Shown one piece after another: positions 37,484-39,610 of a stretch of 45,388 nucleotides of DNA. The notes beneath the pieces were generated by a model. The model was not told where the DNA came from, made no database searches, and saw only the letters and a list, made by a program, of their open reading frames with translations. The position numbers and the translations under genes are program-made. Positions within the stretch are counted from its first letter, which is position 1; each line of letters opens with the position of its first letter. The DNA is from an uncultured Draconibacterium sp. (GTDB lineage Bacteria; Bacteroidota; Bacteroidia; Bacteroidales; Prolixibacteraceae): NCBI RefSeq assembly GCF_913060805.1, contig NZ_CAJXTC010000040.1, positions 1 through 45,388 on the forward strand, given 5' to 3'.

Positions 37484-38491
37484 ATGAAACGAATAAAACG
37501 CTTTTTACTGATAGTGATTCTTTTGGCGATTATTACTTATTTCCTGGGGCCAAAACCACCAAAGCCTGAGCTGAATAAAGACCTGCCATCGCTATCGGCA
37601 AGCATCGCAAACATTGAGACATTTGTGCAGCGGAAAGAAGCTGCTTTTTCGATTAAACCTGATAATGAAAGCCGCATTATCTGGGCAAATGATTCGATAA
37701 AAGAGCGCACCGATTATTGTGTGTTGTACTTGCACGGATTCTCGGCTTCGTGGTTCGAGGGGCACCCGGCACACGAGCGTTTTGCGCAACATTTTGGTTA
37801 CAACTTGTACATTCCGCGTTTACACGATCATGGTTTGGTTACCGAGGATCCTTTGATTGACATGACTCCCGATAAATTATACGCGTCGGCAAAAGAAGCA
37901 CTAATGGTTGCACGCAGTCTGGGCCGAAAAGTGATTATCATGAGCACTTCAACAGGAGGAACGTTGGGGTTAAAACTGGCGGCTGATTTCCCCGAATATG
38001 TGGACGGACTGATTATGTATTCGCCAAATATAAAAGTGAAAAACAGCTCGATGGTTGTATTGTCGAAACCGTGGGGATTACAAATCGGGCGAAAAGTAAT
38101 GGGCGGTAAATACCGTATTTCTGACGAGGATCCGCAGTCGGAAGATTGCAAATACTGGAACTGTAAATACCGAGTGGAAGCACTGGTTTATTTGCAGCAA
38201 CTGCTCGATGCCACCATGACAAAAGAAACGTTTAGCCACGTTACAGTACCGGTATTTCTGGGCTATTATTATAAGGATGATGAACACCAGGATCAAACAG
38301 TTAGCGTTGATGCAATGCTTGATATGTTTGAAGAACTGGGAACATTACCCAATCAAAAAGTGAAAAAAGCCTTTCCTGAAGCCGGCGATCACGTTATAGC
38401 ATGCGAACTTACTTCCGGTAGCGTGGAAAAAGTAATTGCCGAAACCATCCGTTTTGGAGAAGGTATTTTAGGATTGAACCCGACCCGCTAG
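37484..38491 (+). CDS. membrane-anchored alpha/beta hydrolase
   Basis: N-terminal membrane anchor or signal (residues 5-22) followed by an alpha/beta-hydrolase fold like monoacylglycerol lipase/carboxylesterase. The oxyanion loop is LHGFSASW (83-90). The nucleophile elbow is MSTSTGGT with Ser156; the usual leading Gly is Ser154. The catalytic His is in EAGDHVIAC near the C terminus. 335 aa. The substrate is unknown, likely an acyl ester. The stop codon is immediately followed by the left repeat of the GIY-YIG cassette. Confidence 0.85.
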   Translation: MKRIKRFLLIVILLAIITYFLGPKPPKPELNKDLPSLSASIANIETFVQRKEAAFSIKPDNESRIIWANDSIKERTDYCVLYLHGFSASWFEGHPAHERFAQHFGYNLYIPRLHDHGLVTEDPLIDMTPDKLYASAKEALMVARSLGRKVIIMSTSTGGTLGLKLAADFPEYVDGLIMYSPNIKVKNSSMVVLSKPWGLQIGRKVMGGKYRISDEDPQSEDCKYWNCKYRVEALVYLQQLLDATMTKETFSHVTVPVFLGYYYKDDEHQDQTVSVDAMLDMFEELGTLPNQKVKKAFPEAGDHVIACELTSGSVEKVIAETIRFGEGILGLNPTR

Positions 38492-38529
38492 CTGTCATTT
38501 CGAAGGAGGAACGACTGAGAAATCTCCAG
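38492..38529. repeat. left inverted repeat of the GIY-YIG cassette
   Basis: Starts directly after the hydrolase stop codon. The outer block is CTGTCATTTCGA, the middle is GAGG-containing, and the inner block is GAGAAATCT. It ends 3 nt before the nuclease ATG. Its outer and inner blocks recur in inverted order and orientation at 38836-38868. Confidence 0.75.
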
Positions 38530-38532
38530 CCT

Positions 38533-38835
38533 ATGAAAGACCACAATTATTTTGTATACATCGTTACTAACAAAAACAAAACGGTTTTATATATAGGCGT
38601 TACCAATGATCTGCAAAGACGAGTATTCGAACATGAAAATGGATTAATACCTGGTTTTTCGAAAAAATATAATTGTAATTTCCTCGTTTTTTATGAGCAC
38701 TTCAAACAGGTTGAACATGCCAGTGACAGGGAGAAAGAAATAAAGAAATGGAGGAGAGAAAAGAAAAATAATTTGATCAGAAAGTTTAATCCAAGCTGGA
38801 ACTTTCTGAATCAAAAGATCTATTCCTCCTTGTGA
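38533..38835 (+). CDS. GIY-YIG nuclease domain protein
   Basis: 100-aa single-domain protein of the UvrC/YhbQ-like GIY-YIG superfamily. The motif is split as VYI (8-10) and YIG (20-22). The conserved Arg is in DLQRRVFEH (29/30), the metal-binding Glu in SDREKEIKKW (67-69 region), and the terminal NPSW (86-89) is typical. All catalytic positions are present, so it looks active. The ATG follows the left repeat and the stop codon touches the right repeat, making a 377-bp unit. There is no other partner gene. Confidence 0.9.
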   Translation: MKDHNYFVYIVTNKNKTVLYIGVTNDLQRRVFEHENGLIPGFSKKYNCNFLVFYEHFKQVEHASDREKEIKKWRREKKNNLIRKFNPSWNFLNQKIYSSL

Positions 38836-38868
38836 CAGATTTCTCCTTGTGCCTCGTCGAAATAACAG
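38836..38868. repeat. right inverted repeat of the GIY-YIG cassette
   Basis: Begins at the base after the nuclease stop codon. Its reverse complement reads CTGTTATTTCGA, then CGAGG, a variable middle and GAGAAATCT. Compared with 38492-38525, the blocks CTGT, ATTTCGA, GAGG and GAGAAATCT are identical and only the middle and a few single bases differ. The pgl stop is 10 bp further on. Confidence 0.75.
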
Positions 38869-38878
38869 ATTCTTATTT

Positions 38879-39610
38879 TTACTGAATTTGCGCAGCTGCC
38901 TCTTGGTCTAAAAACCAGGTTAATGTACCGTTGGTTGGCGTAATGTAGTAGGCCGGTAACAACTGGGCTGCATCATTGTCGTTCATAATTTCCGAAACCC
39001 GCAAAGCTTTATTCGAGCCTGTTACCAGGAAAAATATCTGGTTGGCATTATTCAACACGTTGCCGGTTATTGTAACGCGTTTTTGCCCGGTAAGCGGATG
39101 AACGGCAACGGCACAGCTTTGTTCGTCTTCAAACAGTTCCATCTGGTCGGGGAAAATTGAAGCTGTGTGTCCGTCGTCACCAAGACCAAGAATAATCAGG
39201 TCGAAAACCGGATTTTTACCGCGCGAATTTAAGCTTTGTTCCATCTCTTGCGAGTAGCGCAGTGCCTCCTGCTCCGGATCTTCCTCGCCTTTTATACGGT
39301 GAATGTTTTCTTCAGGAATGGAAATATTTGAAAGCAGGTAGTCAACTGTCATTTTATAGTTGCTTTGCTCGTCGGTTGGAGGAACACAGCGCTCGTCGCC
39401 CCACCACAAATGAATACGTTCCCACGGAATTCGTTCGGCGTATTTTTTACTGATCTTTTTAAAAAGTCCTTTTGGAGAATTTCCGCCAGACAGTGCGATA
39501 TCGAAGACTTCCTGATTCGAATTTTGTACCATCTTAATGATTGCCTTCGCGATGGCTTTGTAAACATCTTTCGGTTTCGAATAGATTTTTACCTCTGTAA
39601 AAGTTTCCAT
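38879..39610 (-). CDS. pgl: 6-phosphogluconolactonase
   Basis: Hydrolyses 6-phosphogluconolactone, the second oxidative pentose phosphate step. The NagB-like fold shows SGGNSPKGLF, the HLWWGDERCVPPTDEQSNY motif and LGLGDDGHTASIFP. The 243 aa length is normal. It is the last gene of the minus-strand run, 45 nt after zwf. A gnd gene is not present in the window. Confidence 0.94.
   Translation of the reverse strand: METFTEVKIYSKPKDVYKAIAKAIIKMVQNSNQEVFDIALSGGNSPKGLFKKISKKYAERIPWERIHLWWGDERCVPPTDEQSNYKMTVDYLLSNISIPEENIHRIKGEEDPEQEALRYSQEMEQSLNSRGKNPVFDLIILGLGDDGHTASIFPDQMELFEDEQSCAVAVHPLTGQKRVTITGNVLNNANQIFFLVTGSNKALRVSEIMNDNDAAQLLPAYYITPTNGTLTWFLDQEAAAQIQ

Follow-up and report, generated by a model that had tools for sequence, protein, structure and literature searches.

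A stand-alone GIY-YIG nuclease gene between inverted copies of a matched CGTC-type REP: a probable homing-like cassette in Draconibacterium and its relatives

Background

REPs have been split into GTAG sequences, which go with RAYT transposases, and CGTC sequences, often TGTC, which have stems opening in AT and occur as inverted dimers (Di Nocera, De Gregorio, Rocco 2013, PMC3733652). According to the available portions of that survey, CGTC REPs came from five phyla, Bacteroidetes among them, and the dRS3 repeat of Neisseria was classed as CGTC-1; these REPs were without a dedicated adjoining transposase, what moves them was left open, and GIY-YIG proteins are nowhere mentioned (PMC3733652). 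In REPIN/RAYT systems, REP doublets are dispersed, a matched dedicated gene lies beside REPs, and gene and repeat co-diversify (PMC3116915; PMC3733652). In the titles and abstract openings returned by a literature search, GIY-YIG genes were not linked to REPs, and where both terms co-occurred they stood in separate places.

Free-standing GIY-YIG homing endonuclease genes are a known class. In addition, site-specific GIY-YIG nucleases designated Ssn, which cut single strands at genomic repeats, were reportedly described in about 2025 from Neisseria, with homologues elsewhere; they are said to be single-domain proteins, each paired with a repeat (NTS) that occurs hundreds of times in the genome, and their homologues to differ in specificity. 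That work reportedly stressed transformation and not the mobility of a REP-gene-REP unit with empty, solo, doublet and gutted alleles. By this description, the system reported below resembles Ssn in that a GIY-YIG gene of a single domain goes with its own dispersed repeat, which flanks it, and the Ssn report narrows what is new in it. The nuclease of the present system is a candidate enzyme for a bacterial repeat class whose driver was reported missing. A survey of the GIY-YIG superfamily is available (PMC1564403).

Results and discussion

Organization of the cassette

In the window, i.e., the whole 45,388-nt stretch of DNA analysed from an uncultured Draconibacterium sp., an intact GIY-YIG nuclease gene encoding 100 aa was bracketed by two inverted repeat copies (Table 1). 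The left repeat followed directly after the TAG stop of the hydrolase gene (nt 38489-38491), and its shared core ended 6 nt before the nuclease ATG, not 3 nt as first described. The right repeat began 1 nt past the nuclease TGA, and its last shared base (nt 38868) lay 10 bp from the stop of the convergent pgl gene (nt 38879), in agreement with the preliminary description. The right REP carried TGTT in place of the TGTC tag, one base off; its orthologues in three relatives had TGTC.

Table 1. Features of the cassette and the genes bordering its site in the window
Feature	Position (nt)	Strand	Basis and remarks
Alpha/beta hydrolase-like gene, left border of site	37484-38491	+	Pfam matches under curated cut-off
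Left REP, TGTCATTTCGAAGGAGGAACGACTGAGAAATCT, core TGTCATTTCGA..GAGAAATCT	38493-38526	+	P subtype; sequence, genome-wide pattern, orthologous junctions
GIY-YIG nuclease gene, 100 aa	38533-38835	+	ORF, Pfam, alignment, AlphaFold2 model
Right REP, TTTCGACGAGGCACAAGGAGAAATCT, TGTTA before it	38837-38867	-	R subtype; sequence, genome-wide pattern, orthologous junctions
6-phosphogluconolactonase gene (pgl), right border of site, convergent	38879-39610	-	

The repeat in its own genome

The pattern TTTCGAN{4,30}GAGAAATCT gave 66 strict matches in the 5.48-Mb genome, 33 on each strand, and the reversed pattern gave none, which bears out the earlier claim of a GIY-YIG gene lying between imperfect inverted repeats. 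These A-type REPs comprised 48 copies in 24 close inverted pairs (doublets), the two cassette arms and 16 lone copies. All 24 doublets consisted of a + copy followed by a - copy with a spacer of 12-25 nt. A crude rule based on length and prefix assigned the two arms to different subtypes in 23 of them, and P with R, the combination of the window, was the commonest (7/24). Among the REP sites fetched, 27 of 30 (out of the 66) fell outside ORFs of 150 aa or more.

The stems of A-type REPs, ATTTC/GAAAT, were 5 bp long and then interrupted, with loops longer than 4-5 nt. When folded as DNA, two REP doublets far exceeded their shuffles (z -6.6 and -6.1); neither single REP of the window did so (z about +1.1), and one of the four single REPs folded, of the CCGTC subtype, beat its shuffles (z -3.1).

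Arms of the same subtype were seen in only one of the 24 doublets of this genome; near-perfect REP palindromes may be selected against. In the doublet at G000:C1:57609-57681, compared with its orthologue in G024, the left-arm subtype differed and the right arm and flanks agreed, as if REP arms had been exchanged.

A relaxed REP pattern allowing two mismatches yielded mostly single chance matches and was left out of the counts. Eight + - pairs displayed from it gave no clean insertion border for gene-less doublets: one was a chance pair located in conserved coding sequence, and the remaining pairs differed in presence or absence between genomes, with borders that were not clean.

Association of repeat and gene in the genus

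Relatives of the window protein (E<=1e-15) were found in 28 of 37 congeneric genomes, and all 61 genes were examined. For the 18 relatives at least 67.7% identical to the window gene, the nearest repeat was in every case an A-type REP on both sides, + on the left and - on the right; such A-type genes were present in 16 of the 37 genomes and occupied at least five chromosomal places. None of the 43 more distant GIY-YIG genes of the genus had an A-type REP on both sides. Instead, 29 of these had ATTGCGA..GCAAT, ATGCYGAA..TTCRGCAT or ATTCCCRC..GYGGGAAT on at least one side, 13 matched no stem pattern, and one further, short fragment had an A repeat on one side. The B-type repeat was found in 28 of the 37 genomes.

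The number of A-type REPs, the cassettes' own repeats included and related genomes being treated as independent, had a median of 37 in the 16 genomes with an A-type gene versus 5 in the 21 without (one-sided p 0.0024); for genomes at least 90% complete, the medians were 42 (n=15) versus 3.5 (n=16; p 0.0025). With the pattern reversed as a control, five of the 37 genomes gave matches, at most 2 each. Copy number tracked the gene loosely, since G006 (111 REPs), G001 (57; genome 86% complete), G015 (45) and G034 (36) were REP-rich with no intact A-type gene found at E<=1e-15; G032 had the gene and only 2 REP matches. Occurrence of the repeat both with and without the gene, the search for which the preliminary description had proposed, was thus observed as dispersal in both forms.

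Association in other phyla and relation to CGTC REPs

At E<=1e-18, a relative was held by 120 of 296 sampled genomes of the phylum. A 24-row alignment, scanned against genome contigs, revealed at least 578 relatives, the best 80 of which were taken as named loci; by record title these came from Bacteroidota, Verrucomicrobia, Proteobacteria, Patescibacteria, Nitrospirae, Clostridia, Chloroflexi, Omnitrophota and others. In the gene flanks of these 80 loci (40.1 kb), 211 TCAT-stem-ATC hairpins were found (5.26/kb), compared with 235 in 1113.8 kb located more than 1 kb from the gene (1-10 kb; 0.21/kb), a 25-fold enrichment in the flanks. Hairpins were present on both sides in 49 of the 80 loci and on at least one side in 70. 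Of the 72 permuted arrangements of head and tail letters compared, the true one gave 211 hairpins and the next best 9. For the 208 flank hairpins with room for the count, the letter before TCAT was G in 204, the letter before this G was T in 173 and C in 16, and the letter after ATC was T or C in 203; therefore, the general form is TGTCAT-X-loop-X'-ATCY. Similar repeats near such genes in other Bacteroidota, which the preliminary description had mentioned, were thus seen there and in other phyla as well.

In a motif-free comparison of the left flank with the reverse-complemented right flank, 51 of 86 genes scored above the 99% shuffle level and 35 did not (in this 86-row set and in the 153-row stem set used below, one gene is counted double, L114/L160, and L256/L258 may be genus genes already included). 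The mean score was 16.8; shuffles averaged 9.2, and a left flank set against the right flank of a different gene averaged 11.4, the 95th percentile of the latter comparison being high (21) because different genes share repeat types. In viral contigs, 40 relatives were found; 15 of these had a flank resembling a REP, in no case of the A type.

The cassette repeats fit the CGTC REP superfamily. An unpaired CGTC/TGTC tag stood at one end of most flank hairpins of the 80 loci, with TGTT in the right REP of the window, and the A-type REPs were dispersed, mostly intergenic and arranged as inverted dimers. The AT opening of the stem may be a further likeness; in the TCAT..ATC hairpin search it was built into the pattern and is not independent evidence. 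In CGTC REPs, heterodimers are likewise common in some families, but stems are 8-9 bp and loops 4-5 nt long, whereas A-type REPs had shorter or interrupted stems and longer loops (PMC3733652).

Co-diversification of stem and nuclease

The four stem letters of the REP nearest to the gene were used as a stem label, which could be given to 126 of 153 rows. Left and right stems agreed in 50 of 76 cases (a proportion of 0.11 was expected from the pooled frequencies). The proportion of protein pairs having the same stem was 0.04 where identity was 45-50% and rose to 0.82 where it was 70-85%, and a Mantel-type test on pairs below 85% identity gave r -0.24, a value that none of 1000 permutations reached. 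Of the 80 named loci, 65 were labelled, and in 27 of these the closest protein had the same stem, against a permutation mean of 5.4 and maximum of 15. Here as in the other tests, related genomes were counted as independent. Stem type follows the relatedness of the nucleases; nuclease clades and REP stems go together.

REP doublets that are dispersed, an adjoining matched gene and its co-diversification with the repeat are features shared with REPIN-RAYT or REPtron systems (PMC3116915). The analogy with REP and RAYT drawn in the preliminary description is therefore good, with two differences: the enzyme is a GIY-YIG protein and not a Y1 (HUH) transposase, no such hairpins adjoining any of the 23 Y1 genes examined, and the tag is TGTC/CGTC and not the GTAG given for RAYT-associated REPs (PMC3733652).

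The GIY-YIG protein

The window protein matched Pfam PF01541 with 58.8 bits (cut-off 22.6). Residues invariant in 24 aligned proteins include Y9, Y20, G22, R30, H34, E67 and N86; the catalytic roles of the Y, R and E residues in the GIY-YIG fold presumably apply to the window protein, which has both this fold and these residues, as expected of a member of the superfamily. The AlphaFold2 model had a mean pLDDT of 93.4. Its search against solved structures gave UPF0213 (1zg2, E 7e-4), Slx1 (E 8e-3) and UvrC (E 0.24), and comparison of the protein and the A1 profile with the PDB gave UPF0213 and UvrC, as plausible relatives only. These nearest folds (UPF0213 and, more weakly, the branched-DNA nuclease Slx1 and UvrC) would fit a structure-aware nuclease.

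Natural alleles at orthologous sites

Twenty-six hydrolase-pgl junctions (site 1) were compared in the genus, drawn from the best 30 of 43 pgl matches, four of which were without the hydrolase gene. A full cassette was present in four (own genome, G009, G005 and G013), a solo left REP without the gene in three (G024 and G030; decayed in G012), and neither repeat nor gene in 19. Thus, the empty sites that the preliminary description had suggested looking for were found together with solo-repeat and full states, and neither of the outcomes it had named as refuting, a repeat found only here or a gene present in all relatives with unrelated flanks, occurred.

At site 2 (14 genomes), G012, G030 and G024 carried a cassette, G029 had a doublet lacking the gene, G006 had a decayed doublet, and nine genomes had other sequence. 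At site 3 (14 genomes), G012, G024, G029 and G007 had a cassette and G003 was empty; in G006, both REPs were kept and the gene was gutted by a large internal deletion; and another gene, of 116-118 aa, was found in eight genomes, the own genome included. A homing endonuclease gene splits its own target and thereby protects it. The nuclease gene here is enclosed by two REP arms, which at other places are separated by 12-25 nt; the cassettes of G012 and G024 lay beside a doublet and not inside it.

At sites 1 and 2, dN/dS was 0.11-0.30 over the eight same-site pairs calculated; therefore, the protein has been kept working at these sites. Among the site-3 copies of G012, G024 and G029, dN/dS was about 0.5-0.6 and the C-termini were altered; these copies look partly decayed.

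The gene replacing the cassette at site 3 in the own genome (C30:52000-52468, L342) encoded a TIGR02436 four helix bundle protein (137 bits); imperfect inverted repeats, AGCTTCTAGC-like or similar, flanked this gene in all eight genomes (local scores 12-25, a scale without shuffle control). At the site 2 gap (L367-L376), relatives carried other palindromic, insert-like sequences (CCCCCCGTTTC..GAAACGGGGGG; GTAGTGAGTATTGAG..), so that this site may take several repeat families.

Signs of lateral movement

Synonymous differences in the cassette gene were compared with those in both neighbouring genes for 15 same-site pairs by Fisher test. The cassette was less diverged than its flanks in 10 of the 15 (uncorrected p<0.01; pairs within a site are not independent), with 2/59 in the cassette versus 146/400 in the flanking genes for G009/G005 (p 1.9e-8), 12/59 versus 231/397 for G005/G013, and 1/61 versus 112/542 for G030/G024. 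Reduced divergence was absent in the other five pairs, such as G000/G009 (22/59 versus 157/399); the low synonymous rate is thus not intrinsic to the gene.

Clean REP-to-REP bounds were seen in one of three cassette comparisons, G005/G009, in which a near-identical block ran from the left REP to the right REP and the flanking genes were diverged. In G005/G013, near-identity was limited to the left REP and the initial part of the gene; the surroundings in G030/G024 were too similar for the borders of a block to be told. At the hydrolase-pgl site, G013 was the most diverged host, yet its cassette was nearer to those of G005 and G009 than that of the own genome is. We read these patterns as a sign that the cassette has probably spread laterally between species into one and the same site; REP-bounded exchange could alternatively come from ordinary recombination among the REPs. 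The earlier suggestion of a possible self-mobilising unit accordingly found signs of lateral cassette movement on its side, with catalysis presumed.

Like free-standing GIY-YIG homing genes, the cassette encodes a small GIY-YIG nuclease and has probably been passed laterally between relatives at a given site, as seen in the 10 pairs and in the G005/G009 block. The difference is that the sites here are dispersed intergenic REPs, presumably cut by the nuclease, and not a coding target.

Proposed mechanism and alternative explanations

Taken together, the locus is probably a homing-like REP-nuclease cassette, in which the gene for a stand-alone GIY-YIG nuclease is enclosed by its matched REP in two inverted copies, and comparison with relatives suggests that repeat, gene and repeat move as one unit. 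The nuclease would recognise the tag and stem of its own REP and cut it, probably as single-stranded or folded DNA; the break would be repaired by copying from REP-gene-REP on resident or incoming DNA, by which the cassette would home into REP-bearing sites. Gene-less REP doublets would spread as non-autonomous companions, and later decay or loss of the gene would leave solo REPs, REP doublets and gutted cassettes. The preliminary interpretation is thereby supported in part: dispersal, flanks in relatives, site states and lateral signs agree with it, and cutting and mobilisation are what we infer.

A genome-maintenance or DNA-uptake role, as reportedly described for Ssn, in which the nuclease cuts REP-bearing single strands and thus limits or shapes transformation or recombination, REP-bounded exchange being a by-product of homologous recombination and not homing, is a possible but rather doubtful alternative. 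The nuclease is under purifying selection at sites 1 and 2, its matched REPs are dispersed largely outside longer ORFs, and plasmids very seldom carry the gene (at E<=1e-15, 2 of 72,556 records), all as would suit such a role; the REP-to-REP exchange between G005 and G009 is compatible with this view and with homing. However, the A-type gene is patchy, occurs at several places, has been gutted once and is laterally shared, which fits a mobile element better than it fits a fixed function.

That the flanking repeats are terminators or RNA hairpins serving the gene or its neighbours, unrelated to the activity of the nuclease, is very improbable: a fixed TGTC tag, matched stems, flank enrichment in many phyla and a REP-bounded shared block would be unexpected of such elements, even though the window repeats lie between convergent genes and the two doublets folded strongly as DNA.

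Spread of the REPs by a RAYT-like Y1 or other transposase, with the GIY-YIG gene as a passenger, is very improbable. Although Y1 transposase genes occurred in 35 of the 37 congeneric genomes, a TCAT..ATC hairpin closer than 250 nt was found for none of the 23 Y1 genes examined (30 loci were sampled from more than 150 matches, and seven of the 30 were left unresolved by the crude ORF finder), which rules out a RAYT or other Y1 transposase as the mobiliser for these 23; moreover, nuclease clade and REP stem go together, and the portions available of the CGTC survey place no transposase beside these repeats (PMC3733652).

Chance origin of the inverted repeats is refuted: the arms are short and imperfect, and the pair, ranking 22nd of 32 in a local de novo inverted-repeat scan, is unremarkable alone, but the genome-wide copies set against an empty control put it beyond chance, as do conservation at orthologous sites and the bracketing of close homologues by A-type REPs.

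If the homing-like reading of the cassette is extended to the class, CGTC-type REPs would have a dedicated driver, namely tiny GIY-YIG nucleases in many phyla, each matched to its stem and acting through homing cassettes and gene-less doublets independently of transposases, beside the RAYT systems; we regard the chances of this generalization as about even. Neighbourhood, stem matching and lateral exchange tie CGTC REPs to one gene family, and, if the generalization is true, REP systems have arisen around enzymes of unrelated kinds (Y1 and GIY-YIG). The natural series of empty, solo, doublet, full and gutted alleles, together with one 100-aa protein and short oligonucleotides, lends itself to a direct test.

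Other GIY-YIG neighbourhoods

A second group of GIY-YIG genes was observed at tRNA genes or tRNA-like 3' ends (L001/L163, L006/L162, L156, L157 and L158). In L162, where no complete tRNA was found, a 61-nt direct repeat (93%) brackets the GIY-YIG gene; in L157 (G008:C4:3731600-3735400), a 446-nt unit is repeated 6.3 times up to tRNA-His; and in L158 (G029:C1:4090800-4093200), degenerate tRNA copies recur. A suspected A-type pseudogene in G006:C20 proved to be a tRNA-linked GIY-YIG gene instead.

In L115, L128, L143 and L159 (G021, G027, G020 and G004, respectively), a GIY-YIG gene of another type had a TCCCGC-type repeat upstream and continued in frame via IP(A/T)(F/S)AGMT, apparently the translated right REP, into a downstream enzyme, which we take to resemble 6-phosphogluconate dehydrogenase; the open frames were 539-598 codons long, one of them extending past the end of the stretch retrieved. 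At L013:2327-2440 there was another kind of dispersed repeat, about 110 bp long, that had many matches across six relatives.
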